Origin: Mesorhizobium sp. C432A
GTDB taxonomy: Bacteria; Pseudomonadota; Alphaproteobacteria; Rhizobiales; Rhizobiaceae
DNA length: 64,000 bases
Direction: 5' to 3'
Assembly (NCBI RefSeq): GCF_030323145.1
Contig: NZ_CP100470.1
Span: 2,025,001-2,089,000 of the forward strand
The notes below the pieces were generated by a model. That model searched no databases. It was given only the letters and a program-made list of their open reading frames with translations, and was not told the origin of the DNA. Shown one piece after another: positions 20,759-35,490 of this stretch (positions within the stretch are counted from its first letter, which is position 1; every line of letters begins with the position of its first letter). A program made the translations under genes and the position numbers.

Positions 20759-22267
20759 TCACACGTGCTTGCGGCCGCCTGTCTCGCGGAACCAGCTGTC
20801 GGGGTAAGGATACCACCAGTCCTGGATCGCCGGTCTGTGGTCGATGATGACCATCTTGGAGCGTCGGAAGGCGTCGAGTCCCTGGCGTCCCAGCTCGCGG
20901 CCAAGGCCTGATGCCTTCCAGCCGCCGAAGGGCAAGGCGTCATTGTCGATCAGCGGGTTGTTGACCCAGACCATGCCGGCCTCGAGCCGCTCGGCCGCCT
21001 CATGCGCCTCGGCGAGGTCGGTGGTGAACACCGAGGCGCCGAGGCCGAACGGGCTGTCATTGGCAAGCCGGATCGCCTCGTCGAAATCCTTGACGCGGCA
21101 GATCGCGGCGACCGGTCCGAAACACTCTTCGCGCACGATCGCCATATCGGGGGTGACGCCGGTCAGGATCGTTGGCTCGTAGAACCAGCCAGTGTTGTGC
21201 GCCGGCGGAATGCGCCCGCCGGCAACGGCTATAGCGCCGTTGCTGACAGCATCATCGACCAGCCGCATCACTTTCGCCCGGGCGGCTTCGCTGACCAGCG
21301 GGCCGATCTCGGTCTTGTCCATGCCATTGCCGATGCGCAGCGCCCGCGTCTTCTCGGCGAACAGCTCGACGAAGCGATCGTGAACCGAGTCGACGACAAA
21401 GAAGCGTTCGGCCGAGGTGCAGACCTGGCCGGTCAGGTGGAAGGCGGCGGTGACGCTGCCGGCTGCCGCCACGTCGAGCGGCGCGTGCTCGCTGATGATC
21501 AGCGGATCGCTGCCGCCGGCTTCGATGACGCAAGGCTTCATGCGCTCGGCGCAGGCGACTGCCACGGCTTTGCCGGCGGCGACCGAGCCGGTGAAGGCGA
21601 CAGCGTGGGTGCGCTCGGAGGCGATCAGCGCCTGCGCGGTGGCGGCCGTGCCGGGCAGGCAGGAGACCAGCCCTTCGGGCAGCGAGCGGAACACGGTCAT
21701 GTAATCGAGTGTCGACAGCGTCGTGGCTTCGGCCGGCTTGATGATGCAGCCATTGCCGGCGGCAAGCGAGGCCGCAACGGTCCAGCACATCAGCAGGATC
21801 GGGAAGTTGTAAGGCATGATGTGCACGGAGACGCCATACGGCTCGTAGCGCGCATACTGGAACGACCCGGCCTGCGTCGTACCGGCGATCTTGCCGGCGT
21901 CGTCGCGCGCCATCTCGGCATAGTAGCGGAAGATCGGCGCGCAATTGGCGATCTCGCCGATTGCTTCGGGATAAGGCTTGCCCATCTCGCGCACCATCAG
22001 CTCTGCGCAGCGGGTGAAGTCCGCCGCCTCGATGGCGTTGGCGACCGCATGCAGATGCTTTGCCCGGCTCTTGGCATCGAGCTTCTTCCAGGCGGCTTGT
22101 GCCGTGGTTGCGGCACACAGCACCGCATCGACCTCACCGTCCGTTGCGGCGGAGATCGAGCCGACGGTCTCCAGCGTCGCCGGATCGATCACCGGTTTTG
22201 CCGTGCCGGTCATCGGCCGGTAGTCCGGATTGACGAAGAAAGCCGGCCGTTCAGCGGAGAATTGCAT
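20759..22267 (-). CDS. NAD(P)-dependent aldehyde dehydrogenase
   Basis: 502 residues, the standard ALDH superfamily length. Visible motifs: the cofactor loop FTGSVAAGKAVA, the general base Glu249 in CVIEAGGSDPLI, the nucleophile Cys283 in GQVCTSAERF, and ECFGPVAAI near the C-terminus. It oxidises an aldehyde to an acid. The context (gamma-glutamyl ligase, FAD amine oxidase, gamma-glutamyltransferase, polyamine-type transporter) suggests a gamma-glutamyl-aminoaldehyde, as PuuC handles in the putrescine pathway; this is inferred. It is the last gene of the minus-strand arm, after three cupin genes. Confidence 0.88.
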   Translation of the reverse strand: MQFSAERPAFFVNPDYRPMTGTAKPVIDPATLETVGSISAATDGEVDAVLCAATTAQAAWKKLDAKSRAKHLHAVANAIEAADFTRCAELMVREMGKPYPEAIGEIANCAPIFRYYAEMARDDAGKIAGTTQAGSFQYARYEPYGVSVHIMPYNFPILLMCWTVAASLAAGNGCIIKPAEATTLSTLDYMTVFRSLPEGLVSCLPGTAATAQALIASERTHAVAFTGSVAAGKAVAVACAERMKPCVIEAGGSDPLIISEHAPLDVAAAGSVTAAFHLTGQVCTSAERFFVVDSVHDRFVELFAEKTRALRIGNGMDKTEIGPLVSEAARAKVMRLVDDAVSNGAIAVAGGRIPPAHNTGWFYEPTILTGVTPDMAIVREECFGPVAAICRVKDFDEAIRLANDSPFGLGASVFTTDLAEAHEAAERLEAGMVWVNNPLIDNDALPFGGWKASGLGRELGRQGLDAFRRSKMVIIDHRPAIQDWWYPYPDSWFRETGGRKHV

Positions 22268-22287
22268 GGTCGTCCTTTCAGGTCCGC

Positions 22288-22632
22288 TCAGCGGATCATG
22301 TAGACCTTCTTGATGGTCTCATGGACGGTGCAGACGCCTTTCCAATTCTGAGGAAAGAACGCCGCCGTGTCCGGCTCGATCTGGATGACCTCGCCCGATT
22401 CGTGCACATAGGTGCAGCGGCCCTCGAGGAAGTGGCAGAACTCGTCGCGGGTGACATGGCAGTGCCATTTGCCGGGGGTGCAGACCCACAGGCCGCATTC
22501 CGAACGGCCCTCCGGCCCCTTGTAGAGCAGCTTGCCCGAGGTGTGGGACACGCCCTCGATCATGGTCGGGATGACGCCCCAGTCGACGAGGTCGGTGATG
22601 GCAAGCGGGGATTGCATGATGGGCGTGGTCAT
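22288..22632 (-). CDS. Cupin domain protein (DUF861-like), copy A
   Basis: 114-residue single-domain cupin: the core CGLWVCTPGKWHCHVTRDEFCHFLEGRCTY (shown here only as the family motif region, about residues 46-75) and the second motif FFPQNWKGVCTVHETIKKVY. It resembles the Cupin_3/DUF861 group (EutQ and ureidoglycine-aminohydrolase relatives). The start at 22632 has AAAGGA upstream. It is one of three tandem paralogues; the spacing to copy B is 23 bases. No enzymatic activity can be assigned. A role in handling an amine or ammonia-derived intermediate would fit the context but is speculative. Confidence 0.82.
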   Translation of the reverse strand: MTTPIMQSPLAITDLVDWGVIPTMIEGVSHTSGKLLYKGPEGRSECGLWVCTPGKWHCHVTRDEFCHFLEGRCTYVHESGEVIQIEPDTAAFFPQNWKGVCTVHETIKKVYMIR

Positions 22633-22655: not shown

Positions 22656-22997
22656 TCAGCGGCACATGAAGGCCTTGGTCAGTGTTTGCGTGATGGTGGA
22701 GGTGCCGGCCCAGCCGGCGGGGAAGAACACCAGCATGCCGGCCTCGACCGGGATCTCTTCGCCATTCTCGCGGACATAGGTCCCGCGGCCCGACAGGAAA
22801 TGGCAGAACTCGTCGGCGGCAAAGGTAACCTTGCGGCTGCCTGGCGTGCACGACCACAGGCCGCATTCGCTTGAGCCGTCCGGGTTCTGCGAGAGGATCC
22901 TGCCCGAGGCGCGCGGCGAGCCGGCAAGCGTGTTGCTGCCCCCGCCCCAGTCCTCCAGTTTCACGGTCGAGGCCTTTGGCCAGTGCGGTGTCGGCAT
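22656..22997 (-). CDS. Cupin domain protein (DUF861-like), copy B
   Basis: 113 residues, paralogue of copies A and C. Shared pattern: an EDWGGG-like N-terminal motif, SGRILSQNPDGSSECGLWSC, then FAADEFCHFLSGRGTYVREN and VFFPAGWAGTSTITQTLTKAF. In this copy the late HET motif of A and C reads ITQ, so one potential ligand or contact is changed. GGAG lies about 12 bases before the ATG. Co-transcribed with copies A and C. Confidence 0.82.
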   Translation of the reverse strand: MPTPHWPKASTVKLEDWGGGSNTLAGSPRASGRILSQNPDGSSECGLWSCTPGSRKVTFAADEFCHFLSGRGTYVRENGEEIPVEAGMLVFFPAGWAGTSTITQTLTKAFMCR

Positions 22998-23018: not shown

Positions 23019-23369
23019 TCAAGCCAGCATGTAGACGTTGCGCATGGTCTCATGCACGGTGCATTCGCCTGTCCAGCCGGCAGGGAACATGACCACGGTC
23101 CCGGCTGCGACTTCTACCACCTCCCCGGCATCCGACCGGTACGTCGCGCGGCCGGCGACGAAATGGCACAATTCGTCGCGCGGAATCGAGAGCCGCCAGC
23201 GGCCGGGCGTGCAGACCCAGATGCCGGATTCCGGCTGGTTGTTGGGTCCTTTGTGGACAAGCCTGCCGGTCGAGTGCGACGCGCCGTCCAGCGCGTCGGA
23301 CTGGGCGCCCCAGTCGACGAGGTCGGTGCGGGTGGAGGCTTGGTAGAGGTGTGGGGCGGAGGAGGTCAC
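23019..23369 (-). CDS. Cupin domain protein (DUF861-like), copy C
   Basis: 116 residues, first of the cupin triplet. Motifs: DLVDWGAQ, STGRLVHKGP, ESGIWVCTPGRWRLSIPRDE, LCHFVAGRATY and MFPAGWTGECTVHETMRNVY. The GTG start overlaps the stop of the glycosyltransferase gene (GTGA), which indicates translational coupling with that gene. Same possible roles as copies A and B. Confidence 0.82.
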   Translation of the reverse strand: MTSSAPHLYQASTRTDLVDWGAQSDALDGASHSTGRLVHKGPNNQPESGIWVCTPGRWRLSIPRDELCHFVAGRATYRSDAGEVVEVAAGTVVMFPAGWTGECTVHETMRNVYMLA

Positions 23370-24640
23370 AGCAGCGCCTCCAGCAGCCCGGCTGCCTTCT
23401 CAGGCCCGTTCTGGGCCTGCATCTGCGCCGAGGTCTTCGCCAGCCTGATCTTCATCTTGGTGTCAGTCAGGCAGGCTTCGATCCTGCTGATCAGCTGGGC
23501 GTCGCTCCAGTCGTAGCGCGGCATACCGAAGCCGTGGCCGGTTTCCTGGACGCGGGTGGCGTTGTCGTGGCCGTCCCAGACATAGGGCATGATGATGGCC
23601 GGCTTGCCGAAATAGAGGCACTCTGTGAACGAGTTGTTGCCGCCATGGTGGATGACCGCATCGACTTGCGGAATGACCGAAGGCTGCGGAAACCAGCTCT
23701 CCACGATGACGTTGCCCGGCACATCCGTGTACTGGTCCTTGTAGCCGCCGACATTGACCAGCGCGCGGTAACGGGTCTTGCCCAGTGTTGTGATGATGCG
23801 CTTCAACAAATCGACATCGCCGGCGCCGAGGCTGCCGAAGGAGACATAGAGCAGCGGCCCGTCATTGTTCTCGGCGAAGGTCGGCACGGCGTATGGCTTT
23901 TCCTGCCGCACGCAGCCTTCGAGATACTGGAATTTCGTCGTATCAAGCGGATGGCGGCGTTTGAACTTTGCCGCTTCGGGATAGAGCAGGAGATTGAGAT
24001 AGGGCGAGGCCTCGAAGAACTGACCGACCGGGTATGGCGCTTCATTGTTTGCGGTGAGGAAGGCGTTGAAGTCGTCGTGGATCGGCTTGATCACCGCATT
24101 GAAATGATCGCGATAGCGCTGGTGGCCGACATGGTCGTTCTCGCCGCAACCGGAGAGATGCGGCGGGATGTCCTCATCCTCGATCTCGTTTTCCGAGCAG
24201 GAGATGACGCGCACCCAAGGCTTGCCGAACTGTTTGATGGCCGGAAACAGGATCACATTGTCGACGCAAATGACATCAGGCTTGATGGCGGCCAGGACTC
24301 GCGGCAAATCCTTCTGCGCCCATTTGGCGCTGTCGACGATCGCGGTCCAGCAATCCTTCACGTAATTGTCGACCTGATCGTAGGGCGATTTGCGGAAGTT
24401 CGGGATGTGGCCGTTGATGAAGTCTTCCCAGAATTTCGCCATCTGCTCGGGCGGCATCGGCTCCGACAGGTTCACCGGATGCGCTTCGAAGCCGTAACCC
24501 TTGTAGACATCGACAAAGCCGGGGTCGGACAGGAACACTGCCTTATGGCCGCGCGCCTCGACGGCTTGCGCGATGCCGACCGAATTGAGCGCCGGGCCGT
24601 AGGCCGCTTCGGGAAAAAACGCGATCGTCTTCTGCGCCAT
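23366..24640 (-). CDS. GT1-like glycosyltransferase (first of two)
   Basis: 424 residues with a GT-B architecture. The C-terminal nucleotide-sugar motif is HHGGNNSFTECLYFGKPAII followed by MPYVWDGHDNA, a variant of the GT1 HGGxNS...P...DQ..NA signature with His replacing Gln in the D-Q pair. VSFGSLGAG marks the start of the C-domain. No signal peptide or membrane segments, so it acts in the cytosol, presumably on a small molecule. It is a paralogue of 29884-31161, the same length, on the other arm. Start at ATG 24640 (TTG at 24643 also possible), with GGAGAG upstream. The acceptor is unknown. Confidence 0.82.
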   Translation of the reverse strand: MAQKTIAFFPEAAYGPALNSVGIAQAVEARGHKAVFLSDPGFVDVYKGYGFEAHPVNLSEPMPPEQMAKFWEDFINGHIPNFRKSPYDQVDNYVKDCWTAIVDSAKWAQKDLPRVLAAIKPDVICVDNVILFPAIKQFGKPWVRVISCSENEIEDEDIPPHLSGCGENDHVGHQRYRDHFNAVIKPIHDDFNAFLTANNEAPYPVGQFFEASPYLNLLLYPEAAKFKRRHPLDTTKFQYLEGCVRQEKPYAVPTFAENNDGPLLYVSFGSLGAGDVDLLKRIITTLGKTRYRALVNVGGYKDQYTDVPGNVIVESWFPQPSVIPQVDAVIHHGGNNSFTECLYFGKPAIIMPYVWDGHDNATRVQETGHGFGMPRYDWSDAQLISRIEACLTDTKMKIRLAKTSAQMQAQNGPEKAAGLLEALL

Positions 24641-24649: not shown

Positions 24650-25723
24650 CTATTCCTGAAAAATTCTGACATCGGCGGCGTCCCAGCCGAGTTCGACCTG
24701 ATCGCCCGACGAGACCGGCCGGCGGTCGGCGGCATCGGCGGTGACGCGCACCAGAAATGGTTTTGGCGACAGAGGCGTGCGGACATGCAGCTGCAGGTCG
24801 AGCCCGTGATAGGCCAGCGCCTCAACCGTGCCGGCGGTGCGGTTGGCGGTCTCGGCTGACGGGAACAGCCGGATGCGCTCGGGTCGCACCGAAGCGACAG
24901 CGGAAGCGCCGGGTGTGAGCTTGGCGGGAACCTTGCCGGTGATGCGCGCGCCGTTCGCGGCGATCACGCCATCCGCAGACACCTTGCCCGGTACGAAATT
25001 CATCACGCCGATGAAGTCGGCGACGAAACGGTCGGCGGGATGCTCGTAGATCGCATGCGGCGCGTCGCATTGCAGCAACTGGCCGTCCTTGAGCACCGCC
25101 ATGCGGTCGGCCATGACGAGTGACTCTTCCTGGTCGTGGGTGACGATGACGAAGGTGATGCCGACTTCGTGCTGCAGGCGCTTCAGCTCCAACTGCATGG
25201 CGCCGCGCAGTTTCTTGTCGAGCGCCCCGAGCGGTTCGTCGAGCAGCAGCAACCGAGGCCGTTTGACCAGCGCGCGGGCGAGCGCGACGCGCTGCTTCTG
25301 GCCACCCGACAATTGCTCAGGCTTACGGTCGGCGAAGGGGACAAGCTCGGTGGTGGCCAGAATGGCCTCGACGCGGGAACGGATTTCAGCTTTCGGCAAG
25401 CGCTCCATCTCCAACCCGTAGGAGACATTGGCGCGCACGCTCATATGCGGGAACAGCGCGTAGGACTGGAACATCAGATTGACCGGCCGCTTGTTGGGCG
25501 GGGTCCGGGCGATGTCCTTGCCATCGAGCAGTATGCGGCCGTCGGTTGGCGTCTCGAAGCCGGCCAGCATGCGCAGCAGCGTGGTCTTGCCGCAGCCGGA
25601 GGGTCCAAGCAGCGCGAAGAACTCGTTTTCGCGGATGTCGAGCGAGATGCCGTCGACGGCGGTGACCCGGCCGAACTTCTTCGAAACGTTATCAATGGCC
25701 AGCAGCGTGCGCGGTTCGCTCAT
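24650..25723 (-). CDS. ABC transporter ATPase, PotA-like (polyamine type)
   Basis: 357 residues. Walker A GPSGCGKTT, Q-loop FQSYALFPHM, signature LSGGQKQRVA, Walker B LLLLDEP, D-loop GALD and switch His in IVTHDQEE are all intact. The C-terminal third is a TOBE-type regulatory domain (ASVRPERIRL), as in PotA/FbpC/CysA ATPases. It energises import with the permeases at 25720-26511 and 26698-27573. Its ATG overlaps the permease stop (ATGA). The long open frame continuing upstream to 26527 is an out-of-register reading of the permease gene. Confidence 0.92.
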   Translation of the reverse strand: MSEPRTLLAIDNVSKKFGRVTAVDGISLDIRENEFFALLGPSGCGKTTLLRMLAGFETPTDGRILLDGKDIARTPPNKRPVNLMFQSYALFPHMSVRANVSYGLEMERLPKAEIRSRVEAILATTELVPFADRKPEQLSGGQKQRVALARALVKRPRLLLLDEPLGALDKKLRGAMQLELKRLQHEVGITFVIVTHDQEESLVMADRMAVLKDGQLLQCDAPHAIYEHPADRFVADFIGVMNFVPGKVSADGVIAANGARITGKVPAKLTPGASAVASVRPERIRLFPSAETANRTAGTVEALAYHGLDLQLHVRTPLSPKPFLVRVTADAADRRPVSSGDQVELGWDAADVRIFQE

Positions 25724-26511
25724 TGGCCGATGATCCCACGGTTGAGCCGCTGCGACAGGGTCAGCGCGGTGATGGATACCGCCATGACGATCGTCGCCAG
25801 CGCGTTGATCTCCGGCGTGATGCCGAAGCGGATCATGGCGTAGATCTGCATCGGCAGCGTCGTCGAGGCGCGGCCGGCACCGGCGGTGAAGAAGGCGATG
25901 ATGAACTCGTCGACCGAGAGCGTGAAGGCAAGCAGAGCGCCGGCGACCACTGCCGGCGCGATGACCGGCAATGTCACACGCCGGAAGGTGGTCAGAGCCG
26001 AGGCGCCGAGGTCGGCGGAGGCCTCGACGATCGACCAGTCGAAACTCTTTAGCCTTGCGCGCACCACCGAGCAGACGAAGGCGAGGTTGAAGACGACATG
26101 GGCGAGGATGATGGTGTGCAGGCCCATGGTCAGGTTTAGCATGGAGAAGAACGACAGCAGAGCGATCGCCAGGACGATGTCGGGGATGATCATCGGTGCG
26201 AAGATCAGCGCCTCGAGACCCCTGCCGTATTGCCGGCGCATCTCGATGCCGATGGCCAGCAGCGTGCCGAGCAGCGTGGCGATGGCCGTGGAGACCAACG
26301 CCACGATCAGCGTGTTGAGCGCAGCGGAAAGGATTGCGGAATTGCCGGCCAGCGAGGCATACCATTTCAGCGAAAAGCCCGACCATGCCGTCGGCAATCC
26401 GCCTTCGTTGAAGGACAGCGCCACCAGCACGGCGATCGGGATGTAGAGGAAGGCGAAGACGAGGGTGAGGATCGTCCGCATGCCGAGCGTACGGGTGAAG
26501 GAATGGGTCAT
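25720..26511 (-). CDS. ABC transporter permease, PotC-like
   Basis: 263 residues, six predicted membrane segments, and the EAA loop VEASADLGASALTTFRRVTL that contacts the ATPase. The order ATPase-permease-permease-binding protein and the sequence type match spermidine/putrescine importers. Start at 26511 is supported by GGAGG six bases upstream; a longer reading to 26538 lacks that support. It is separated from the second permease gene by 186 bases holding a palindromic repeat. Confidence 0.9.
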   Translation of the reverse strand: MTHSFTRTLGMRTILTLVFAFLYIPIAVLVALSFNEGGLPTAWSGFSLKWYASLAGNSAILSAALNTLIVALVSTAIATLLGTLLAIGIEMRRQYGRGLEALIFAPMIIPDIVLAIALLSFFSMLNLTMGLHTIILAHVVFNLAFVCSVVRARLKSFDWSIVEASADLGASALTTFRRVTLPVIAPAVVAGALLAFTLSVDEFIIAFFTAGAGRASTTLPMQIYAMIRFGITPEINALATIVMAVSITALTLSQRLNRGIIGQ

Positions 26512-26552
26512 CGCCGGCCTCCGACAATTGGAGGGCAAGCGAACGACCAGAG

Positions 26553-26680
26553 TCCTTCTCCCTGTTCGCGGGTAGAAGCTACCGGCAGGCAGACGGGGGG
26601 CAGCGTTGAGCGTCGCAAAGGTTGACGCCGCCCCTCATCCGCCCCTTCGGGGCACCTTCTCCCGGTGAACGGGGAGAAGG
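26553..26680. repeat. Rhizobial intergenic palindromic repeat (RIME-like)
   Basis: Between the two permease genes. Right arm: CCTCATCCGCCCCTTCGGGG then a hairpin CCTTCTCCC...GGGGAGAAGG (26655-26680). Left arm: a degraded inverted hairpin CCTTCTCCC...GGGTAGAAG (26553-26577). The arms match the element at 52718-52869 (CACCTTCTCCCC-type core). Such mosaic repeats are common between genes in Rhizobiales. It may affect mRNA stability within the operon. Confidence 0.65.
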
Positions 26681-26697
26681 CAAGAATTGCGCGGCGC

Positions 26698-27573
26698 TCA
26701 GCCATAGGCGTCACCCCTTGCCTCAGCCGCACGCCCCGCGGCGCGGTCGGCGGCGAGCGCCTGCGCCATAAGCACCAGAAGCATGATGGCGATCAGCGCC
26801 ATCGCCAATGCCGCGCCAAACGGCCAGTCATTGGCGGTCAGGAACTGGTCGTAGACGAGGTTGCCGATCATCTGGAAGCGGCCGCCGCCAAGCAGCGCCG
26901 GGGTGACGAAATTGCCGATCGACAGCACAAAGACGAAGACAGCACCCGCAGCGATGCCGGGCACGGTCAGCGGCAGGATGACACGTCGGAAGGTGGTGGC
27001 AGCGGAGGCGCCGAGATCGCGTGAGGCCTCGGCCAGTTCCGGGTTGAGGCGTGACAGCGGCGCGTAGCAGGCGAGGATGACGAAGGGCAGATAGTTGTAG
27101 ACGAGGCCTGCGATGACCGAGCCTTCGGTATAGAGCATCGAGGGCGGTTCGCCGGTGTAGCCGAACCAGCGCAAGAGCTGGGTGATCAGGCCTTCGCGGT
27201 TCAGCAGCACGATCCAGGCATAGGTGCGGATCAGGTAGTTGGACCAGAACGGCAGCACGGCGAAAAACAGGAACACCGGCTGCCACCGGCGCGGGGCGGC
27301 CGCGATCGCATAGGCGGCGGCATAGCCGATCACGACTGCGATGAGCGTCGCGGTACCGGCGATACGTGCTGAGTTGAGGAAGATGCCGGCATAGAGCGGG
27401 TCGAAGACCAGCCCGAAATTCCCCAGCGTGAAGGTGTAGTCGATGCCGCCATAGACGCCGCGCCGGAAGAAGGCGAGCGCCAGCACCAGGGCGCATGGGA
27501 TAACCATCAGCGCGGTCAGCCAGACCAGCGCCGGGGCCATCAGCAGAGAGGAACGAAGTCGGGTCTGGGACAA
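26698..27573 (-). CDS. ABC transporter permease, PotB-like
   Basis: 291 residues with six likely membrane segments and the EAA loop LAEASRDLGASAATTFRRVI. FWSNYLIRTYAWIVLL is characteristic of PotB-type permeases. It pairs with the PotC-like permease to form the channel. Located 61 bases downstream of the binding-protein stop, after a stem-loop. Confidence 0.9.
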   Translation of the reverse strand: MSQTRLRSSLLMAPALVWLTALMVIPCALVLALAFFRRGVYGGIDYTFTLGNFGLVFDPLYAGIFLNSARIAGTATLIAVVIGYAAAYAIAAAPRRWQPVFLFFAVLPFWSNYLIRTYAWIVLLNREGLITQLLRWFGYTGEPPSMLYTEGSVIAGLVYNYLPFVILACYAPLSRLNPELAEASRDLGASAATTFRRVILPLTVPGIAAGAVFVFVLSIGNFVTPALLGGGRFQMIGNLVYDQFLTANDWPFGAALAMALIAIMLLVLMAQALAADRAAGRAAEARGDAYG

Positions 27574-27634: not shown

Positions 27635-28699
27635 TTACTGCGCGGCCTTGATCTCGCTGACGATCTTGGAATAGTCGCGCTGGGCTTCGCCGACGTCACG
27701 CAACTGCTCGAACTTGACGAGATCGGCCACCGGCATCGCCATGTTGGGGAATTTGGCCAGGAAGTCGGCCGGCAGGCTTTCCATCGCCGGCTTGTTCGGC
27801 ACCTTGTAGTCGATGTTCTGCGCCGCCCAGGCGTGGTTCTTGGCGTCGAGCATGAAGTTGATGAACTTGAAGGCGTCGTCCTTGTGCTCGGACGCCTTCA
27901 TCACCACCATCGTGTCGACCCACAGGTCCGAACCTTCTTTAGGGATGACGTATTTGATCTCCGGCTTGTCGGCGATGCCGTAATTGCACCAGCCGTCCCA
28001 GGCCTGCACCATCAGCGCCTCGCCGGAAACCAGCTTGGAATAGAAGGTGGTGTCGTCATAGGCGAGCAGGGTCTTCTTGGCGGAGATCAAGAGGTCCTTG
28101 ACCTCGGCCATCTTGGCCGGGTCGGTCTCGTTGACCGAATAGCCCTTGTCGAGCTGCCCGGCGGCCAGCAGCCAGCGATCGGTCGCCAGCATGGTGGTCT
28201 TGCCCTTCATCTCGTCGGAAGGGGCGAGCAGGTCGCTCCAGCTCGTGGGCGCCGTCTTGACAAGGTCAGAGCGGTAGCAGAGGCCCGTCGTGCCCCAGGT
28301 GTAAGGCACGGAGAAAGCGTTGCCGGCATCGTGCGGCAGCTTGGTCGCTTCGGGATAGAGGTTGGCGAGGTTGGGGATCTTGGCATGGTCGATCGGCTCG
28401 GTCAGGCCAAGCTTGTTTAATACTTCGGCGAAGGGCGAGGAGACGAAGACCACGTCATAGCCCTTGCCGCCGGCGGCAATCAGCTTGCCCATGATCTCTT
28501 CATTGGTGGCGTGCACCACCACTTCGCCGGCAATGCCGGTGGCGGTCTTGAAAGCGGCCATGGCGTCGGGTGCCATGTACCCATCCCAGTTCGAAATAAC
28601 GAGGTCGGCTGCGGCGGCCGGCCCCGAGAGCGTCAGGGCGAGACCGAGAGCGATTGAGGATGTATTGAGCGCACGGCGCCGCAGGCTGGTAGCGGTCAT
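27635..28699 (-). CDS. Periplasmic substrate-binding protein, PotD-like
   Basis: 354 residues. Signal peptide TSSIALGLALTLSGPAAAA, cleavage near residue 30, then the extracellular solute-binding fold with LVISNWDGYMAPD at the mature N-terminus and GTTGLCYRSDLV in the hinge region, like spermidine/putrescine binding proteins. Specificity cannot be read directly; a cationic amine is likely. Start at ATG 28699 with GGGAG upstream; the open frame runs on to 29077 without support. First gene of the minus-strand arm, divergent from the GntR gene. Confidence 0.9.
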   Translation of the reverse strand: MTATSLRRRALNTSSIALGLALTLSGPAAAADLVISNWDGYMAPDAMAAFKTATGIAGEVVVHATNEEIMGKLIAAGGKGYDVVFVSSPFAEVLNKLGLTEPIDHAKIPNLANLYPEATKLPHDAGNAFSVPYTWGTTGLCYRSDLVKTAPTSWSDLLAPSDEMKGKTTMLATDRWLLAAGQLDKGYSVNETDPAKMAEVKDLLISAKKTLLAYDDTTFYSKLVSGEALMVQAWDGWCNYGIADKPEIKYVIPKEGSDLWVDTMVVMKASEHKDDAFKFINFMLDAKNHAWAAQNIDYKVPNKPAMESLPADFLAKFPNMAMPVADLVKFEQLRDVGEAQRDYSKIVSEIKAAQ

Positions 28700-28809
28700 G
28701 GCAGTCTCCCATTCGGTTTGATCGTCGAAATCATTTGCCGGACCAAGGCCGGCGACGCGCGCGCCTGCCTCGATCCTGTTCCCTCGGTCTTTTCTCGCCG
28801 ATTGTGCCG

Positions 28810-28839
28810 ACAGTACTATTGCAGAAAAAAGTACGTCAA
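28810..28839 (-). promoter_or_regulatory. Possible sigma-70-type promoter of the transporter arm
   Basis: On the minus strand TTGACG (28834-28839), an 18-base spacer, then TACTGT (28810-28815), about 105 bases before the PotD-like ATG. It overlaps an AGTACT palindrome and a second GTAC (28812-28834), which could be part of an operator for the adjacent GntR protein. Sequence match only. Confidence 0.4.
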
Positions 28840-28934
28840 TCCATAATCTGTCAACCGACGGAGGAATTTGGCCGATTGTCCCTGTTCCGGCGATCAGCCA
28901 GACCAATGCGCCACATTCGCATTCGAGAAAAGTC

Positions 28935-29873
28935 ATGCAAGCCGTAGCCAGACGACCTCGCACCAACCATCTCGATCTGGCGCAGCGCATCCTGGATGTG
29001 GCGCGGCAGCGTGGCTTCGAGCCTGGCGCCCGCCTGCCCGAACAGCAGATCGCCTCGCTGTGCAATGTCTCGCGCACGCCCGTACGCGCCGCACTCGGCC
29101 TGCTCGCGGAACGGGGCGTGGTGCGCTGGGAGGCCGACAGCGGTTATCATCTGACGGTCGACCTCGCCGCCCAGCCCGCCATTGCCGCCGAACTACCTAG
29201 TGCGGAGGAAGACGAGCTCGCCGAAGCCATCCTGCGCGACCGCTCGGCGCGACGGTTGGACCAGACGGTGACCATCGCGGGGCTGATGCGACGCTACGAC
29301 GCTGATCGCAAGACGGTACTAAAAGCACTTAACAAACTGACCGACGAGAATCTTCTGGATCGTGCGCCTGGGCAATCCTGGTTGTTTCGCCGCGCGCCGG
29401 ACGATCCGGAGGCGCAAGGCGAAAGCTACGAGTTCCGCCTGGTGCTGGAGCCGGCGGCCATCCTGACGCCAGGCTTTCGGCTGGACGGGGCGCGGGCAGC
29501 AATGTTGCGGCAAGGCATGGAAGCGCTTGCAGCGCTGCCGGACGAGACATTCGACACGCGCGAGTTCCAGCGGCTGGACATGGATTTTCATGGCATGATC
29601 GCCGAGGGCTGCGCCAACCGTTTTGTGTCGGATGCATTGGCCGATCATCTCCGCCTGCGCCGGCTGCCGGGCATCTATTCCGGCGTCAACGTGTTTCGGC
29701 TGCGGCAATCGTTGCGCGAACACTCGGGCATACTCGACTATCTTGAAAGCCGGCAGTATGAGGTGGCTGCCGATCTGCTTCGCATCCACCTGCGGCTCTC
29801 CCGCAGCCAGCGACCGCAAGCAGCCAGCCGCGGAGCTCCCGCACTGTTCAGCATGATCAGCCGGCCGGATTGA
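28935..29873 (+). CDS. GntR-family transcriptional regulator with two winged-helix segments
   Basis: 312 residues. Residues about 15-75 form a GntR winged helix (PEQQIASLCNVSRTPVRAAL with the recognition helix). A second, similar block follows at about 95-155 (VTIAGLMRRYDADRKTVLKALNKL then wing). The C-terminal 150 residues look like an FCD ligand domain (EFQRLDMDFHGMIAEGCAN, HLRLRR). GntR/FCD proteins usually have one DNA-binding domain and about 230-250 residues, so the extra block is unusual. It sits between the two arms of the amine cluster and is the probable local regulator; the ligand is unknown. Confidence 0.85.
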   Translation: MQAVARRPRTNHLDLAQRILDVARQRGFEPGARLPEQQIASLCNVSRTPVRAALGLLAERGVVRWEADSGYHLTVDLAAQPAIAAELPSAEEDELAEAILRDRSARRLDQTVTIAGLMRRYDADRKTVLKALNKLTDENLLDRAPGQSWLFRRAPDDPEAQGESYEFRLVLEPAAILTPGFRLDGARAAMLRQGMEALAALPDETFDTREFQRLDMDFHGMIAEGCANRFVSDALADHLRLRRLPGIYSGVNVFRLRQSLREHSGILDYLESRQYEVAADLLRIHLRLSRSQRPQAASRGAPALFSMISRPD

Positions 29874-29883: not shown

Positions 29884-31161
29884 TTGACGCGTAAAGCCAG
29901 CCCGACCATCGCGCTGTTTCCCGAAGCCAGTTTCGGCGCCGCGTTGAATTGCGTCGGTATCGCACAGGCATTGCGCGCACGGGGCGCTCGCCCCGTCTTC
30001 ATCTGCCATGCCGGCTTCTCCGGCGTCTTTACCGACTATGGCTTCCAGGAATACCATCTGCCGACGGATGAGCCGCTGAGCGACAGCGACCGCCAGAGCT
30101 ATTGGCAGGCCTTCGTGCGCCGGCACCTGCCGCATTTCCGGCTGAGCCCGATCGACCAGCTCGAGACCTATGTCGCGCCGACCTGGCAAGCGATCGTCGA
30201 CACCGCCGTCAACGCCGAGGCGCCGCTGCGCCAATTGCTGGCGCGGCTGAAGCCGGATGTGGTGGTGCTCGACAACGTCATCATGTTCCCGGCGATCGCC
30301 GCCGCCGGCTGCCCGTGGGTGCGCGTCGTCTCCTGTGCCGAGACGGAACTGCCGGATGCCGAGGTGCCGCCCTATCTCTCGGGGATGGGTGCCGACGACC
30401 CGCAACGTGCGGCGTTCGAAGCGCGCTATCTCGCGGCCTCCGCACCCGCGCATGAGCGCTTCAACCGTTTTCGCGCGGATGCCGGCCTGGCGCCGTTGCC
30501 CAAGGGCCTGTTCCTCGAGACATCACCCGACCTCAATCTGCTGCTGACGCCAGCGATCGTACGGCGTGAGCGGGCCGAGCCGCTCGACCCCAAACGCTTT
30601 GTCTATCTCGAAGGCTGCGTGCGTTCGGAAGGGCCATTCGAGGTGCCGGTGTTTCCGCGCAATGGCGGGCCGCTGGTCTATGTCAGCTTCGGCAGCCTCG
30701 GCGCGATGGATGTCGGGCTGATCGAGCGCATGCTCGCCGTCTTCGACAGGCTGCCGGCGCGCTTCATCGTCAATGCCGGCGGCCTGCGCGACGCCTATCG
30801 CGCGGTGCCGGACAATGTCTATCTCGACGCTTGGTTTCCGCAGCCTTCGGTGGTGGCGAAGTCGGACCTGTTTATTCACCATGGCGGCAACAACAGTTTT
30901 TGCGAGGCGCTGCGCTTCGGCGTGCCGTCGCTGATCATGCCCTATTGCTGGGACGGACATGACAATGCGCAACGCGCGGGAGAGACGGGCGTCGGCGACC
31001 ATATCGGCCGCGACGCCTGGACCGAAGGGGGATTGGAGAGAGCCATTCTCGGCCTGCTGGCCGACGATGCGATGCGCGCCCGCCTCAGGGACAATGCTGC
31101 CAAGATGGCGCTGACCCCTGGAACGGATGTGGCCGCGCAAGCCATACTCTCTCTCTCATAG
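29884..31161 (+). CDS. GT1-like glycosyltransferase (second of two)
   Basis: 425 residues, paralogue of the gene at 23366-24640: same N-terminal SPTIALFPEASFGAALNCVG pattern, the shared DNVIMFPAIAAAG segment, VSFGSLGAM, and the nucleotide-sugar motif HHGGNNSFCEALRFGVPSLI then MPYCWDGHDNA. The TTG start has AGAGGA upstream and begins 11 bases after the GntR stop, so the two are co-transcribed; the glutamine-synthetase-like gene starts 14 bases after it. Cytosolic, with an unknown sugar donor and acceptor. The tight linkage to a gamma-glutamyl ligase is the interesting point. Confidence 0.82.
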   Translation: MTRKASPTIALFPEASFGAALNCVGIAQALRARGARPVFICHAGFSGVFTDYGFQEYHLPTDEPLSDSDRQSYWQAFVRRHLPHFRLSPIDQLETYVAPTWQAIVDTAVNAEAPLRQLLARLKPDVVVLDNVIMFPAIAAAGCPWVRVVSCAETELPDAEVPPYLSGMGADDPQRAAFEARYLAASAPAHERFNRFRADAGLAPLPKGLFLETSPDLNLLLTPAIVRRERAEPLDPKRFVYLEGCVRSEGPFEVPVFPRNGGPLVYVSFGSLGAMDVGLIERMLAVFDRLPARFIVNAGGLRDAYRAVPDNVYLDAWFPQPSVVAKSDLFIHHGGNNSFCEALRFGVPSLIMPYCWDGHDNAQRAGETGVGDHIGRDAWTEGGLERAILGLLADDAMRARLRDNAAKMALTPGTDVAAQAILSLS

Positions 31162-31175: not shown

Positions 31176-32558
31176 ATGCAGGACAAAAATACCAACACCG
31201 CTCTCTTCACCGGCAACGATCCCAAGGCCTGGCTCGCCCAGCACGGCATCACGGAGGTCGAGTGCCTGGTGCCCGACATGAATGGCGTGCTGCGCGGCAA
31301 GGCGCTGCCGACAGCAAAATTCCTCAAGGCGCTGGAAGACCGCGCACTTTACCTGCCGAGCAGCGCTTTCCTGGTCAGCATCGATGGCCGCTACTCCGGT
31401 TCGATCGACGAAGGCTTTGCCTATCAAGACCCGGATATGCGCATGGTGCCTGATATGTCGACGCTGTGCCTGGCGCCGGGCGGTGGCGCTGGCAAAGCCT
31501 ATGTCTTCGCCGACGCCTTCCACATGGAAGGCAAGCCCTGGATGGCCTCGCCACGACATGTGCTGCGCGCCGTGCTCGATCTCTACCGGAAGCGCGGTTG
31601 GCGCGCGGTGGTGGCGCCGGAAGTCGAATTCTATCTGACCGCGCCCAATCCGAATCCCGACCAGCCGCTGACGGCACCGGTTGGCGCCAATGGCCGCGCC
31701 GAGGGTTCGCAGCATCCCTATGACATGGTGGCGCTGGAAGAATTCGAGCCGGTGATAAGGCGCGTCTATGACTATGCCGCGGCCGCCGGTCTGCCGCTCG
31801 ACACGCTGATCCATGAATCCGGCGCCGCGCAGCTGGAGATCAATCTGCTGCATGGCGACGCGGTGCCGCTGGCCGACCAGGTGCTGCTGTTCAAGCGGCT
31901 GACGCGCCAGGCGGCGCAGCAGAGCGGCATGCACGCCACCTTCATGGCCAAGCCGATCGCGGCGCAGGCGGGAAGCTCGATGCACCTGCACATGTCCGTC
32001 GTCGATGAGAAGACGGGCGCCGCGCTGTTTGCCGACAGAGATGATGCAGACACCGAAATGTTCGGCCATTTCATCGGCGGCCTGCAGAGATATGTGCCCG
32101 AGATCATGCCGCTGTTCGCACCCAACGTGAACTCGTTCCGCCGCATCCGGCCGAACCACAGCGCACCGGCCAACATCGAATGGTCGCATGACAACCGCTC
32201 TTGCGGCCTGCGCGTGCCGGCAGGTGGCCGCGCCGCCCGGCGGGTAGAGAACCGCTTGCCGGGAGCGGATTGCAATCCCTATCTGGCGATCGCCGGTTCG
32301 CTGCTTGCCGGCTATCTCGGCGTCGAGCAGAAGCTGGCGCGCTCGGCTGAGGCCTCGGGCAATGCCTACAAGATCAAAAGCACGCTGCCGAAAACGATGG
32401 AGGAGGCGCTTGATCGTTTCATTGCTTGCGAGCCGGTGCGGGCATTGCTCGGCGAGGATTTTTTCCAGACCTATCTGCGCGTCAAGAGCGTCGAACTCGA
32501 CCTGTTCCAGAGCGTGGTGACGAGCTGGGAACGCGACCATTTGCTGCTGAAGGTGTGA
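31176..32558 (+). CDS. Glutamine-synthetase-like gamma-glutamyl ligase (PuuA-type)
   Basis: 460 residues, glutamine synthetase fold: beta-grasp N-domain (ECLVPDMNGVLRGKALP), metal ligand segment VAPEVEFYL, GSSMHLHMSV with the catalytic-site His, NHSAPANIEWSHDNRSCGLR for ATP/glutamate binding, and ENRLPGADCNPYLA near the C-terminus. The sequence type is that of glutamate-polyamine ligases (PuuA, GlnA3/GlnA4) rather than housekeeping GlnA. It would join the gamma-carboxyl of glutamate to an amine using ATP. The neighbouring oxidase, dehydrogenase and gamma-glutamyltransferase support this. The amine is unknown. Confidence 0.85.
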   Translation: MQDKNTNTALFTGNDPKAWLAQHGITEVECLVPDMNGVLRGKALPTAKFLKALEDRALYLPSSAFLVSIDGRYSGSIDEGFAYQDPDMRMVPDMSTLCLAPGGGAGKAYVFADAFHMEGKPWMASPRHVLRAVLDLYRKRGWRAVVAPEVEFYLTAPNPNPDQPLTAPVGANGRAEGSQHPYDMVALEEFEPVIRRVYDYAAAAGLPLDTLIHESGAAQLEINLLHGDAVPLADQVLLFKRLTRQAAQQSGMHATFMAKPIAAQAGSSMHLHMSVVDEKTGAALFADRDDADTEMFGHFIGGLQRYVPEIMPLFAPNVNSFRRIRPNHSAPANIEWSHDNRSCGLRVPAGGRAARRVENRLPGADCNPYLAIAGSLLAGYLGVEQKLARSAEASGNAYKIKSTLPKTMEEALDRFIACEPVRALLGEDFFQTYLRVKSVELDLFQSVVTSWERDHLLLKV

Positions 32559-32560
32559 TC

Positions 32561-33862
32561 ATGGCCTCCGGCTCAACGGGTTTCAATTCGAGCCTCGATA
32601 TCGGCAATTCCTATTATGTCGCCACCGCCAATCCGGCGCCGGACCATCCGGCGCTGGTGGGAGATGTCGGCGCCGATCTGGTGGTGGTCGGTGGCGGCTG
32701 CACCGGCCTGTCGGCCGCCCTTCATGCCGCCGAGCGCGGCCTGAAGGTGGTGCTGCTCGAAGGCGGCAAGATCGGCTGGGGCGCGTCGGGCCGCAATGGC
32801 GGCCAGATGATCCCCGGCCTGCGCAAAGGCGCCAAGGGGCTGGTCAAGCTCTACGGCCCCGAGCGGGCGAAGGCGCTGTTCGACCTCGCCTTCGAGGCGC
32901 GGGGCCTGGTGCTCGACATCATCGAGCGCCACACCATCGACTGCGATCTGCGGCTGACCGGCCATCTCGTCGGTGCCGTTAATGGCTCCGACCTCAGGGA
33001 TCTCGAAGACGAGGCCAAATGCCTCGAGAGCGTGATGAAGTTCCGCGACGTCGAGATCCTGTCGGCGGCGCAGGCACGCAGCAAGGTGGACACGCCCTAT
33101 CATGGCGCGATGTATGAGCCGCTCGGCGGCCATATGCATCCGCTGAACTACACGCTCGGCCTTGCCCGTGCCGCCGTGGCGGCCGGTGTCGTCATCCATG
33201 AAAACTCCGTCGCGGTAAAGCTGGAGCGCGAGCCTTCGATCCGGGTCTCGACGGCGCAGGGGTGGGTAAGGGCCAAACATGTCGTGCTGGCCGGCGACGC
33301 GCTGCTGCATGGGCTGGAGCCGCGCGTCAACAGCCGCATCATGCCGGTAGGCAACTATATCGTCGCCACCGAGCCGCTGGAGGGCAAGCGCAATGTGATC
33401 CCGGCCAATGTGGCGGTGTCCGATACACGCTTCGTCGTCAACTACTACCGCACGTCGGCGGACGGTCGGCTGCTATTCGGCGGCGGCGAGCGCTACACGC
33501 GATCGCCGCCGGCCGACATCGCCGGCTTCGTGCGGCCGCACATGGAGGCCACCTTCCCGCAACTGAAGGGCTGCCGCATCGATCATGCCTGGGGCGGTCT
33601 GGTGTCGGTGACCACGTCGCGGCTGCCGCATGTCGGGCACTATGGCGAGGTCTATTTCGCGCATGGCTATTCCGGCAAGGGCGTCATCCTGTCAACGCTG
33701 TCGGGCAAGCTCTTGGCCGAAGCGATTACGGGCGACGCCTCGCGGCTGGACCTGTTCTCGACGCTGACGCCGATGCCGTTCCCGGGCGGTACGGCGCTGC
33801 GGGGCCCGCTCTATGTGCTGGGGATGTTGTGGTACGCCATGCGCGACCGCATCAAGCATTGA
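32561..33862 (+). CDS. FAD-dependent amine oxidase/dehydrogenase (PuuB-like, DAO family)
   Basis: 433 residues. FAD-binding motif VVVGGGCTGLSAALHAAERG near residue 43, then LLEGGKIGWGASGRNGGQMI, a hallmark of the PuuB/OrdL group; the second FAD contact GYSGKGVILSTLSGKLLAEA is near the C-terminus. It would oxidise the gamma-glutamylated amine to the aldehyde with release of ammonia. The ATG is two bases after the ligase stop. An upstream extension of the frame lies inside the ligase gene and is rejected. Confidence 0.88.
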   Translation: MASGSTGFNSSLDIGNSYYVATANPAPDHPALVGDVGADLVVVGGGCTGLSAALHAAERGLKVVLLEGGKIGWGASGRNGGQMIPGLRKGAKGLVKLYGPERAKALFDLAFEARGLVLDIIERHTIDCDLRLTGHLVGAVNGSDLRDLEDEAKCLESVMKFRDVEILSAAQARSKVDTPYHGAMYEPLGGHMHPLNYTLGLARAAVAAGVVIHENSVAVKLEREPSIRVSTAQGWVRAKHVVLAGDALLHGLEPRVNSRIMPVGNYIVATEPLEGKRNVIPANVAVSDTRFVVNYYRTSADGRLLFGGGERYTRSPPADIAGFVRPHMEATFPQLKGCRIDHAWGGLVSVTTSRLPHVGHYGEVYFAHGYSGKGVILSTLSGKLLAEAITGDASRLDLFSTLTPMPFPGGTALRGPLYVLGMLWYAMRDRIKH

Positions 33863-33903
33863 AGGCTGCGGCCGGCGGGCGCGAAATCATTGGAGGCGAT
33901 TGC

Positions 33904-35490
33904 ATGCGTGATTTTCAGTTCCCCGGACGCTCGCCAGTTCGCGCGACAGAAGCGATGGCGGCGACATCGCATCCGCTGGCGACGCTGGCCGCCATCGACA
34001 TGCTGCGCTCCGGCGGCAATGCCATGGATGCCGCTGTGTGCGCTGCGGCGGTGCAAGGCGTCGTCGAGCCGCAATCGACCGGCATCGGCGGCGACTGTTT
34101 TGTGCTCTACTCCCCCAAAGGCGAGGGCGAGGTGCTGGCCTTCAACGGCTCGGGGCGGTCGCCTGCTGCTGCAAATGCCGATTGGTATCTGGAGCGGGGC
34201 CATAGCGAACTGCCTGCGGCCGGACCGCATGCCGTCACCATACCAGGCGCCATCGATGCATGGTGCCGGCTACTCGAGGACCACGGAAAAAAGGGCATCG
34301 ACGCCGCGCTGGCGCCAGCCATTCGCTATGCCGAACAAGGCTATGTCGTTCATGATCGCGTCGCCTTCGACTGGGCCGACGAGGTCGCCCTGCTCTCAGC
34401 CGATGAACATGCCGCGCGCATATTCCTGCCCGAGGGAAGGGCGCCGCAAGCCGGCGATGTGCATCGGCAGCCGCACTTGGCGGACACCTTGCGCATCATC
34501 GCCAACCGAGGCCGTGCAGGGTTTTATGAAGGTGAAGTCGCGGACGATCTGGTGGAACGTCTTCGCGCGCTGGGCGGGCTGCATGCATTGGAGGATTTCG
34601 CCGAGACCCAAGGCGACTACGTCACGTCGGTGAATACGTCCTATCGCGGCTACGATATCCATCAGATGCCACCGAACAATCAGGGCATGACGGCGCTGAT
34701 CATGCTGAATGTGCTTTCGGGCTTCAGCCTTGGTTCGTTGGAGCCGAACAGTGCCCAGCGGCTGCATCTCGAGATCGAAGCCGGCCGGCTTGCCTACCAG
34801 GACCGCGATACTTTCATCGGCGACCAGGATTTCGTCCAGGTCCCCGTCGAACAACTGCTGTCGGCAGCTTATGCGGAGCGGCTGCGCGCCGCCATCGATC
34901 CGGCCCTCGCCATGACGCATCTGCCGCGGCTTGAGCTGCCGCGCAGCGACACCGTCTATATCTCCGTGGTCGACCGCGACCGCAATGCAGTCAGCTTCAT
35001 CAACTCGACCTTCGGTTCCTTCGGCAGCGGCGTCGTCGGTCCCAAGACAGGCGTCGTGCTGCAGAATCGCGGCAGCAGTTTTCGCCTCACGGAAGGCCAT
35101 CCAAATCGTATCGCGCCGCGAAAGCGACCGATGCACACCATCATGCCTGGCATGGCGACGCGAGGGGGTAAGGTGGTGATGCCGTTCGGGGTGATGGGCG
35201 GCGGCTACCAGCCGTTCGGCCATGTCCATCTGCTGACCAACATGATCGATTTCGGGATGGACCCGCAGCAGGCACTGGATGCGCCACGGGTGTTCTACAA
35301 GGACAATGCCGTGCTGGCCGAGCGCGGGATTCCGGCTGAGGCGATCGCCGGCCTGCGTCAGCGCGGCCATCAGGTTTCGATCGCCGAGGAGCCGCATGGC
35401 GGCGGCCAGTTGGTGCTGATCGATTGGGAAAAGGGCACGCTCACCGGTGCCTCCGATCCGCGCAAGGACGGTTGTGCGCTGGGCTACTGA
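33904..35490 (+). CDS. Gamma-glutamyltransferase family protein, cytoplasmic
   Basis: 528 residues. N-terminal ATSHPLATLAAIDMLRSGGN and VVEPQSTGIGGDCF are typical of the GGT large subunit. The self-cleavage/nucleophile site is DTVYISVVDRDRNAVS, where Escherichia coli GGT has TTHYSVVD; the Thr nucleophile is kept and the next two positions are changed. INSTFGSFGSGVV and VMGGGYQPFGH complete the small subunit. There is no signal peptide, unlike periplasmic GGT, which fits hydrolysis of an intracellular gamma-glutamyl acid, taking the place of PuuD. GGAGG lies 8 bases upstream of ATG 33904. Confidence 0.85.
   Translation: MRDFQFPGRSPVRATEAMAATSHPLATLAAIDMLRSGGNAMDAAVCAAAVQGVVEPQSTGIGGDCFVLYSPKGEGEVLAFNGSGRSPAAANADWYLERGHSELPAAGPHAVTIPGAIDAWCRLLEDHGKKGIDAALAPAIRYAEQGYVVHDRVAFDWADEVALLSADEHAARIFLPEGRAPQAGDVHRQPHLADTLRIIANRGRAGFYEGEVADDLVERLRALGGLHALEDFAETQGDYVTSVNTSYRGYDIHQMPPNNQGMTALIMLNVLSGFSLGSLEPNSAQRLHLEIEAGRLAYQDRDTFIGDQDFVQVPVEQLLSAAYAERLRAAIDPALAMTHLPRLELPRSDTVYISVVDRDRNAVSFINSTFGSFGSGVVGPKTGVVLQNRGSSFRLTEGHPNRIAPRKRPMHTIMPGMATRGGKVVMPFGVMGGGYQPFGHVHLLTNMIDFGMDPQQALDAPRVFYKDNAVLAERGIPAEAIAGLRQRGHQVSIAEEPHGGGQLVLIDWEKGTLTGASDPRKDGCALGY

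Follow-up and report, generated by a model that had tools for sequence, protein, structure and literature searches.

A conserved glycosyltransferase–cupin–Pot transporter cluster in Mesorhizobium sp. C432A with a candidate role in amine catabolism

The Puu pathway of Escherichia coli consists of PuuA, PuuB, PuuC and PuuD, and, to our knowledge, the groups used to mask amines during their breakdown are all of the acyl type (gamma-glutamyl and acetyl). Here we describe a gene cluster of Mesorhizobium sp. C432A at positions 20759-35490 of a 64,000-nucleotide stretch, called the window below (contig NZ_CP100470.1, 2,025,001 to 2,089,000), in a 6.02-Mb genome made up of a single contig (G000). Like the Puu genes, it brings together in one locus a glutamine synthetase (GS)-superfamily ligase, a DAO-type FAD-dependent oxidoreductase and an aldehyde dehydrogenase (ALDH), along with polyamine-type transport. 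Unlike the Puu genes, its ligase and ALDH miss the PuuA and PuuC equivalog cut-offs by a wide margin, the ALDH lies in the opposite operon arm, a gamma-glutamyltransferase-family protein (GGT) is found instead of PuuD, and two glycosyltransferases (GTs), GT-A and GT-B, form a conserved core together with EutQ-like cupins.

The reading that we tentatively prefer, stopping just short of giving it an even chance, is that the locus joins two modules and a neighbouring GGT gene. Its core would be an old, patchily distributed pair of operons for amine uptake and catabolism, contributing a step that depends on a uridine diphosphate (UDP)-sugar and is perhaps an N-glycosylation, and the second module would be the ligase and the FAD oxidase. 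What defines the core, in this reading, is a GT1-like enzyme whose active site departs from the canonical one in a fixed way, with EutQ-like cupins usually behind it. The elements are of known kinds (a Puu-like ligase and oxidase, the GT1 fold and EutQ-like cupins), and neither this combination nor such a cluster was found described in open-licence PMC papers, judged by title and start of abstract.

The core and its partner genes across genomes

A profile search of contigs with an alignment of both GTs gave 553 relatives, and since only the best 80 were kept, the named loci lean to Mesorhizobium and its close kin. With 26 further loci added from taxon surveys there were 106 loci with a GT, 78 of them long-flank loci, with at least 8.5 kb upstream and at least 3.5 kb downstream of the GT. 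Grouping was by GT-A identity: 45 long-flank loci are Mesorhizobium-like (L026-L077, GT-A identity of at least 89%); the second group holds 19 other long-flank loci (Shinella, Rhizobium, Pararhizobium, Metarhizobium, Peteryoungia, Frigidibacter, unclassified Rhizobiaceae, Rhodobacteraceae and Alphaproteobacteria, including L081 and L084, both named Mesorhizobium, the latter a metagenome-assembled genome); and the third group holds the 14 long-flank loci among the 26 added from surveys.

The core, GT-B–GntR in one direction and PotD-PotB-PotC-PotA–GT-A–cupins–ALDH in the other, is complete in 45/45 Mesorhizobium-like and 19/19 second-group loci, with GT-A, GT-B, GntR, the four pot genes, cupC, cupA and ALDH each present in every one of the 45. 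Both the Pot-type transporter and the GntR regulator, which lie between the two arms and are not mentioned in the original prediction, belong to it. In the third group GT-A was found in 14 loci, cupA in 13, ALDH in 12, each pot gene and cupC in 11, GT-B in 6 and cupB in 1. Three genomes of a single genus from another class than the window's also carry the full divergent cluster, with the same two-GT layout; their GT-A is 67% and their GT-B 59% identical to the window's. Because the core gene order recurs in several genera, the co-localisation is not due to chance. The recurring unit is GT-A followed by a cupin: of the 109 GT-A genes that are followed by 700 bp or more of sequence, 98 (47/47 Mesorhizobium-like and 51/62 others) have a same-strand cupin that starts no more than 650 bp downstream, and across loci the cupins directly after the GT are single or in tandem arrays of up to four. 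At the thresholds used, and with the own or centre genome included in the counts, GT matches were found in 12/121 genomes of the order (one of these, G069, holding only a remnant), 12/337 of the class and 8/398 of the phylum. The order to which one distant hit belongs gave 9/22 genomes, and the class of the hit from beyond the window's own class gave 2/321. This patchy distribution fits horizontal spread and loss.

The original prediction joined gamma-glutamylation, the GTs and the GGT in one Puu-like pathway. An amine-catabolic type of locus, with GTs that are integral and conserved, was borne out by the survey, but the single pathway was not. GT-B is followed by the ligase, and then the FAD oxidase, in 50 of 51 Mesorhizobium-like loci and in none of 29 others, where the next gene is an ALDH (12 loci) or no query gene lies within 700 bp (17 loci). 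The ligase, which stands next to GT-B only in Mesorhizobium-like loci, is thus an optional partner, and since it also survives loss of the cluster we rejected it as the core. The predicted co-occurrence of the GT pair with the ligase in other genomes therefore holds for the Mesorhizobium-like loci and, outside them, only for four (L080, L083, L084 and L086), in which a ligase with 62-66% identity follows the ALDH; the flank of L083 is too short for the 19-locus count. This second placement of a related ligase speaks in favour of some link between the gamma-glutamyl pair and the cluster. By long-flank loci, ligase and FAD oxidase are present in 43/45 of the Mesorhizobium-like group, the ligase in 3/19 (after the ALDH) and the FAD oxidase in 0/19 of the second, and both in 0/14 of the third. 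A ligase of more than 80% identity was found in 3/121 genomes of the order survey, in Mesorhizobium only, and two further genomes have one at 49-50%.

Cluster loss within Mesorhizobium separates the two modules further. Among 37 genomes of the genus (own included), 16 carry the cluster and 15 have an orthologous ligase–FAD pair without it; of the rest, one has a diverged pair (G125) and five have no pair among the matches listed, weak ones being left out. A short GT-B remnant stands just before the ligase in 15/15 of the cluster-less genomes with an orthologous pair and not in G125 (weakest E-value 1e-5 in the set of 17 loci). In two loci, L169 (7309-7671) and L170 (6909-7274), a shared internal deletion has joined GT-B codons 1-36 to codons 339-424, and in L170 the resulting 122-codon frame is open and directly precedes the ligase. 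Since these remnants precede the ligase, the cluster was once present and then lost, with the ligase–FAD pair outliving it; and since the pair survives the loss, it and the core are separate modules. The deletion remnants are natural knock-outs for comparative growth tests.

Two rival explanations turn on these counts. According to the first, all genes form one integrated pathway, in which the ligase glutamylates an amine, oxidation and dehydrogenation follow, the GGT releases the product and the GTs glycosylate the same substrate. The contiguity of all these genes in the window, the co-directional ligase 14 bp after GT-B, the constancy of that order in Mesorhizobium-like loci and the related ligase behind the ALDH in four others argue for it; we nevertheless consider it quite improbable, given the scarcity of the ligase and FAD oxidase in the second and third groups, the 15/15 genomes that keep the pair with only a GT-B remnant, the rarity of an adjacent GGT and the presence of a PuuD-type hydrolase candidate elsewhere in the genome (best PF07722 match, 246.6 bits, at G000:C1:772838-773494, outside the window). 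According to the second, there are two independent systems: the GT-cupin-Pot-ALDH operon works alone, and the ligase–FAD pair is a Puu-like unit of its own, with the shared GT-B transcript in Mesorhizobium as its only tie to the operon. Retention of the pair after cluster loss, and clusters without the pair in Shinella, Rhizobium, Rhodobacteraceae and others, speak for this explanation, which we nevertheless consider unlikely, since the pair is kept in 43/45 Mesorhizobium-like long-flank clusters and a related ligase follows the ALDH in the four other loci.

The GGT, which had been proposed as the final step of the pathway, did not hold that place and is probably a bystander, a recent neighbour outside the core. 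It lies directly beside the FAD gene in 1/45 Mesorhizobium-like loci (L028), where the visible flank beyond the FAD gene is 466-1019 bp, so that a GGT farther off would escape; in L026 one weak match with 7% coverage lies past the FAD gene. In the whole genomes of 15 other cluster-bearing Mesorhizobium the best GGT match, among the matches listed, lies beside the cluster in one (G136) and elsewhere in 14. The protein reaches the TIGR00066 cut-off (377.2 bits vs 357.85), its nearest solved structure is 2nlz (383.5 bits), and no signal peptide is evident by eye, no predictor having been run.

Outside the Mesorhizobium-like loci other oxidoreductase genes, several of them typical of amine metabolism, take the place of the ligase. 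A saccharopine-dehydrogenase-like gene (Pfam NADP-binding domain, 62 and 58 bits) is present in 9/19 second-group loci and a second ALDH in 8/19. The cupin gene cupB, found in 33/45 Mesorhizobium-like loci, occurs in 3/19. The 14 third-group loci contain an AmgK-like kinase in 5, a distant DAO-type enzyme in 4 and a saccharopine-dehydrogenase-like gene in 3. The AmgK-like kinase, whose scores of 246 and 240 bits do not reach the equivalog cut-off of 500, lies between cupA and ALDH in seven loci (L078, L079, L143-L145, L157 and L158). Beside the two-GT locus L153 there is an OYE-family flavoprotein with proteins of the electron-transfer flavoprotein/Fe-S and GcvT types, and L155 and L218 have a related flavoprotein with a Liv-type transporter; the OYE-family protein resembles trimethylamine and dimethylamine dehydrogenases by eye only. 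In L164 (2579-12485), GT-A and two cupins are flanked by a GcvT-like gene on one side and a Liv-type transporter on the other, and after the transporter comes a trimethylamine monooxygenase that exceeds its curated cut-off (834.3 bits vs 675); a link of this GT-cupin unit to methylated amines is possible.

Residue changes in the two glycosyltransferases

The presence of two GT paralogues of nearly equal length, one per arm, was predicted correctly: they are 48% identical over 422 aligned columns. In a midpoint-rooted FastTree tree the 109 GT-A and 85 GT-B sequences are each monophyletic, so that the pair goes back to an old duplication. The window's GT-A is 89-97% identical to the GT-A of named Mesorhizobium, and the GT homologues (best 120 of 3120) are named "glycosyltransferase", "MGT family glycosyltransferase" and similar at their source. 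For both GTs the best NCBIfam model is the macrolide glycosyltransferase model TIGR01426 (MGT), but neither reaches its cut-off of 260 bits (scores of 103.1 and 114); no macrolide or resistance context was seen around the GTs.

The AlphaFold model of GT-A (pLDDT 93.4) has the GT-B-type fold over its whole length, with a TM-score of 0.90 to 7mco. The nearest solved structures are those of the spider-mite UDP-glycosyltransferases (UGTs) UGT203A2 (7lvy/7mco, best PDB sequence match with 189 bits) and UGT202A2, and these enzymes of a plant-feeding spider mite are closer to GT-A in the PDB than any bacterial enzyme of solved structure. Mites acquired UGT genes from bacteria. In the part of PMC6288829 considered here, horizontal transfer is named for other genes and UGTs are not among them. 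Like the mite UGTs, the family keeps the whole-length fold and the UDP-binding motif. Unlike them, since they retain the catalytic His and the Asp-Gln pair, all 194 sequences have Pro or Ala and Asp-Gly at these sites; as a lead to the substrate the mite enzymes were set aside, nearest in structure yet with their catalytic His kept.

In HMMER alignments with the mite UGTs, YjiC and CalG1, Pro16 of GT-A falls at the position of their catalytic His (with a one-residue gap beside it for UGT202A2). The catalytic-base column (N-terminal GxGH/GxGD, with His, or Asp in sterol-type enzymes) is P in 109/109 GT-A and A in 85/85 GT-B, and the Gln of the Asp/Glu-Gln donor pair is replaced by Gly in 194/194 while its Asp is kept. 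In contrast, the C-terminal motif (W, Q, HGG, NS, E) is preserved, with Trp316 in 193 of the 194 sequences, Gln319, His332, Asn336 and Glu340 in all, and Ser337 in 191; Gly333-334, Asn335, Asp356 and Asp127 are likewise conserved in 194/194. We take Trp316, Gln319, His332, Gly333, Asn336 and Glu340 to be the UDP-binding residues of this motif. A PF06722 search within the same order supplied 14 other GT1-like proteins as controls (24 loci, minus nine belonging to the family itself and one without a frame); their base column reads D in 11, H in 2 and N in 1, and their donor column Q in 12, K in 1 and S in 1. Because the controls keep D, H or N and mostly Gln, the two changes are a property of the GT-A/GT-B subfamily. 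UDP binding thus seems to be kept, judging from these columns, and the usual base for O-glycosylation seems to be lost. Decay into pseudo-enzymes is unlikely, the altered residues and the UDP motif being fixed in 194 sequences.

A 2025 paper reports, in the part considered here, that plant GT1s with Cys in place of the catalytic His carry out N-glycosylation, catalysis by proximity alone being a speculation there (PMC12246196). The same part describes weak O-glycosylation by GT1s without the His, a point that weighs against our preferred reading; loss of the base is therefore suggestive of a nitrogen acceptor and not proof of one.

A possible mechanism and what weighs against it

What the loci have in common is import, a base-less enzyme with the UDP-sugar motif, an oxidising partner, an ALDH and, mostly, a cupin. 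In the preferred reading, the Pot-type ABC (ATP-binding cassette) transporter would import an amine, and GT-A, together with GT-B in two-GT loci, would move a sugar from a UDP-sugar onto the amine nitrogen, an acceptor that may do without the general base that these GTs have lost. Masked by the glycosyl group, the amine would then be oxidised at the neighbouring carbon, giving an aldehyde, by a module that differs between genomes: the ligase and FAD oxidase in Mesorhizobium, the saccharopine-dehydrogenase-like enzyme in Shinella and Rhizobium, and other flavoproteins elsewhere. The ALDH would turn the aldehyde into an acid, and the sugar would be released, perhaps with the aid of the cupins; in loci with an AmgK-like kinase it would then be phosphorylated again. 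The ligase and FAD oxidase would form a Puu-like gamma-glutamylation pair, which is also kept without the GTs. From the encoded protein families we infer amine import, amine oxidation and aldehyde oxidation by the cluster; the N-glycosylation is a conjecture from the residue pattern and gene company, and so are the roles of cupins and kinase in release and recycling of the sugar.

The ligase is probably an amine-glutamate ligase. It falls below both NCBIfam GlnA (222.7 bits vs a cut-off of 429.15) and the GGputSyn equivalog (184.9 vs 650). As far as the part of PMC11335346 considered here goes, organic-amine ligases (GoaS: NpaA1, AtdA1, PuuA and others) have lost Asp50' and a flap Glu. Like them, the window ligase lacks the FDGSS motif of true GS; unlike them, it is used in only some of the loci. 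At the Asp50' site HMMER alignments place YSGSI, with Ser for Asp, whereas a MAFFT alignment, used without its L174 row that a wrong frame had truncated, puts that stretch elsewhere. The counterpart of the GYEAP motif of true GS reads NHSAP, with Ser for Glu, at a site that may or may not be the flap residue numbered Glu357 in that paper. The polyamine ligase GlnA2 of Streptomyces keeps Asp50, according to the part of PMC8998196 considered, so the Asp50 motif is no absolute mark of an amine ligase. The nearest NCBIfam model to the FAD oxidase is L-pipecolate oxidase (197.6 bits vs a cut-off of 600). A second ligase–FAD pair is present in the genome at 220618-223039 (46% and 40-41% identical). 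Elsewhere in the genome, at G000:C1:4382546-4383633 (L006, L007), a GS with canonical FDGSS is split over two overlapping frames, either by a frameshift or by a sequencing error.

The best NCBIfam model for the ALDH is TIGR01804 (betaine-aldehyde dehydrogenase), at 381.7 bits below its cut-off of 668.6, and the PuuC equivalog (248.5 bits vs 850) is not reached either. All three cupins score well above the Cupin_3 gathering score of 23.5. They resemble EutQ-like/DUF861 cupins (3bcw, uncharacterised) in fold and Pfam family, and differ from these in directly following a GT, singly or in tandem, and in having no conserved His triad. A role as metal enzymes was rejected, as no His triad is found among the conserved residues and the best solved relative, 3bcw, is listed as uncharacterized. 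The cupin tree shows cupB and cupC, but not cupA, to be monophyletic, so the cupin names are given by best match.

Among PDB polyamine-binding proteins the PotD-type protein matches 4eqb best (155.8 bits), and 1pot with 126 bits. Of the residues that we take to contact the ligand in E. coli PotD, Trp229, Trp255 and Asp257 are kept in the window's protein, which has Gly, Thr and Trp in place of Glu36, Asp168 and Glu171. With three acidic positions replaced, neither putrescine nor spermidine is a probable ligand, and plain polyamine transport is doubtful on this comparison.

These replacements also bear on a third rival, in which what is imported already carries its sugar, as an opine- or glycosylamine-like conjugate with an amine, and is cleaved by the GT1-like enzymes with UDP as sugar acceptor before the amine is oxidised. 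An intact UDP site with changed base and donor residues, relatives of the sugar kinase AmgK in seven loci and a binding protein without the three acidic PotD residues would all suit such a reverse reaction. An AmgK-like kinase, however, needs free sugar and not a UDP-sugar, the trimethylamine monooxygenase partner in L164 suggests a simple amine there, and we know of no precedent for a catabolic GT1 working in reverse, so that we regard this explanation as very doubtful.

Several observations besides weigh against the preferred reading of UDP-sugar-dependent amine catabolism. The exit of the sugar is unexplained, since the core has no glycosidase, and the replaced acidic PotD residues sit poorly with a polyamine-type amine. 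The flavoprotein and GcvT-type partners carry loose names: the best model for the OYE-family protein is a mycofactocin-system OYE oxidoreductase (361.4 bits vs a cut-off of 793.15), and the GcvT-like proteins reach no cut-off. A single substrate is unlikely to serve the whole family, because the transporter of L155, L164 and L218 is of the Liv type. Near the core of L100 and L105 no amine-oxidising gene was recognised, as judged from the starts of the frames and not by family search. Eleven of the 109 GT-A genes lack a cupin directly behind them (in four a cupin is placed elsewhere within 4 kb, and in seven none was detected), and L213 and L216 consist of PotDBCA and GT-A without cupin or ALDH. 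Finally, a GT that has lost its base could have been re-purposed, or could bind UDP-sugars without catalysing a reaction.

If the preferred reading is true, sugar masking would be a new kind of masking step in amine breakdown, a distinct GT1 subfamily so far named only generically would gain a function, and the fixed loss of base and donor Gln would predict the acceptor, perhaps nitrogen, and the donor, perhaps not plain glucose. A broader idea, which we put forward as rather speculative and unlikely, is that the base-less GT1 subfamily and the EutQ-like cupins give amine catabolism in general a handle made of sugar, much as Puu uses a gamma-glutamyl handle: sugar would be placed from a UDP-sugar onto the amine nitrogen, interchangeable modules would oxidise the masked amine, and the sugar would be released and recycled to sugar-1-phosphate where an AmgK-like kinase is present.

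Layout of the locus and neighbouring genes

All the genes named in the original prediction were recovered as open frames at their positions, each Pfam match lying above its curated cut-off (Table 1). Two divergent gene sets leave the interval 28700-28934 between them: leftward run potD, potB, potC, potA, GT-A, cupC, cupB, cupA and ALDH, and rightward GntR, GT-B, ligase, FAD oxidase and GGT. GT-A and the first cupin overlap by 4 bp, and gaps of 10, 14 and 2 bp separate GntR from GT-B, GT-B from the ligase and the ligase from the FAD gene; these overlaps and short gaps indicate operons. The Pot-type transporter is complete at 24650-28699.

Table 1. Genes of the cluster, with positions in the window
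Feature	Position	Strand	Length	Basis and remarks
ALDH	20759..22267	-	502 aa	Pfam Aldedh 490.7 bits; final gene of the GT-A operon
cupA, EutQ-like cupin	22288..22632	-	114 aa	Pfam Cupin_3 62.9 bits
cupB, EutQ-like cupin	22656..22997	-	113 aa	Pfam Cupin_3 58.8 bits; optional
cupC, EutQ-like cupin	23019..23369	-	116 aa	Pfam Cupin_3 56.3 bits; start overlaps GT-A stop (GTGA)
GT-A, GT1-like glycosyltransferase	23366..24640	-	424 aa	Pfam EryCIII-like_C 59.9 bits, UDPGT 41.9 bits
PotA-type ABC ATPase	24650..25723	-		Open reading frame and conserved order; start picked by eye, would overlap potC by 4 bp
PotC-type permease	25720..26538	-		Open reading frame and conserved order; named by position and eye
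PotB-type permease	26698..27573	-		Open reading frame and conserved order; named by position and eye
PotD/PotF-type substrate-binding protein	27635..28699	-	354 aa	phmmer against PDB polyamine-binding proteins
GntR/FCD regulator	28935..29873	+		Pfam GntR 61.1 bits, FCD 61.2 bits; divergent to potD, heads the GT-B operon
GT-B, GT1-like paralogue of GT-A	29884..31161	+	425 aa	48% identical to GT-A; separate clade
Glutamine-synthetase-like ligase	31176..32558	+	460 aa	Pfam Gln-synt_C 342.3 bits
FAD-dependent oxidoreductase, DAO family	32561..33862	+		Pfam DAO 249.2 bits; PuuB-like position
Gamma-glutamyltransferase-family protein (GGT)	33904..35490	+	528 aa	TIGR00066 match

The cluster is bordered by a sugar-type ABC transporter (35674-39970, minus strand), after which the plus strand has an aldolase-like frame (40133-40810) and another, resembling a carbohydrate kinase, that ends at 42267, all named by eye; the genes at 35674-42267 apparently form a separate sugar locus. 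On the other side, a single open frame of 4346 aa occupies 6958-19998 on the minus strand and, by eye, begins with an inverse-autotransporter barrel followed by beta-helix-like repeats, as in a putative very large surface protein.

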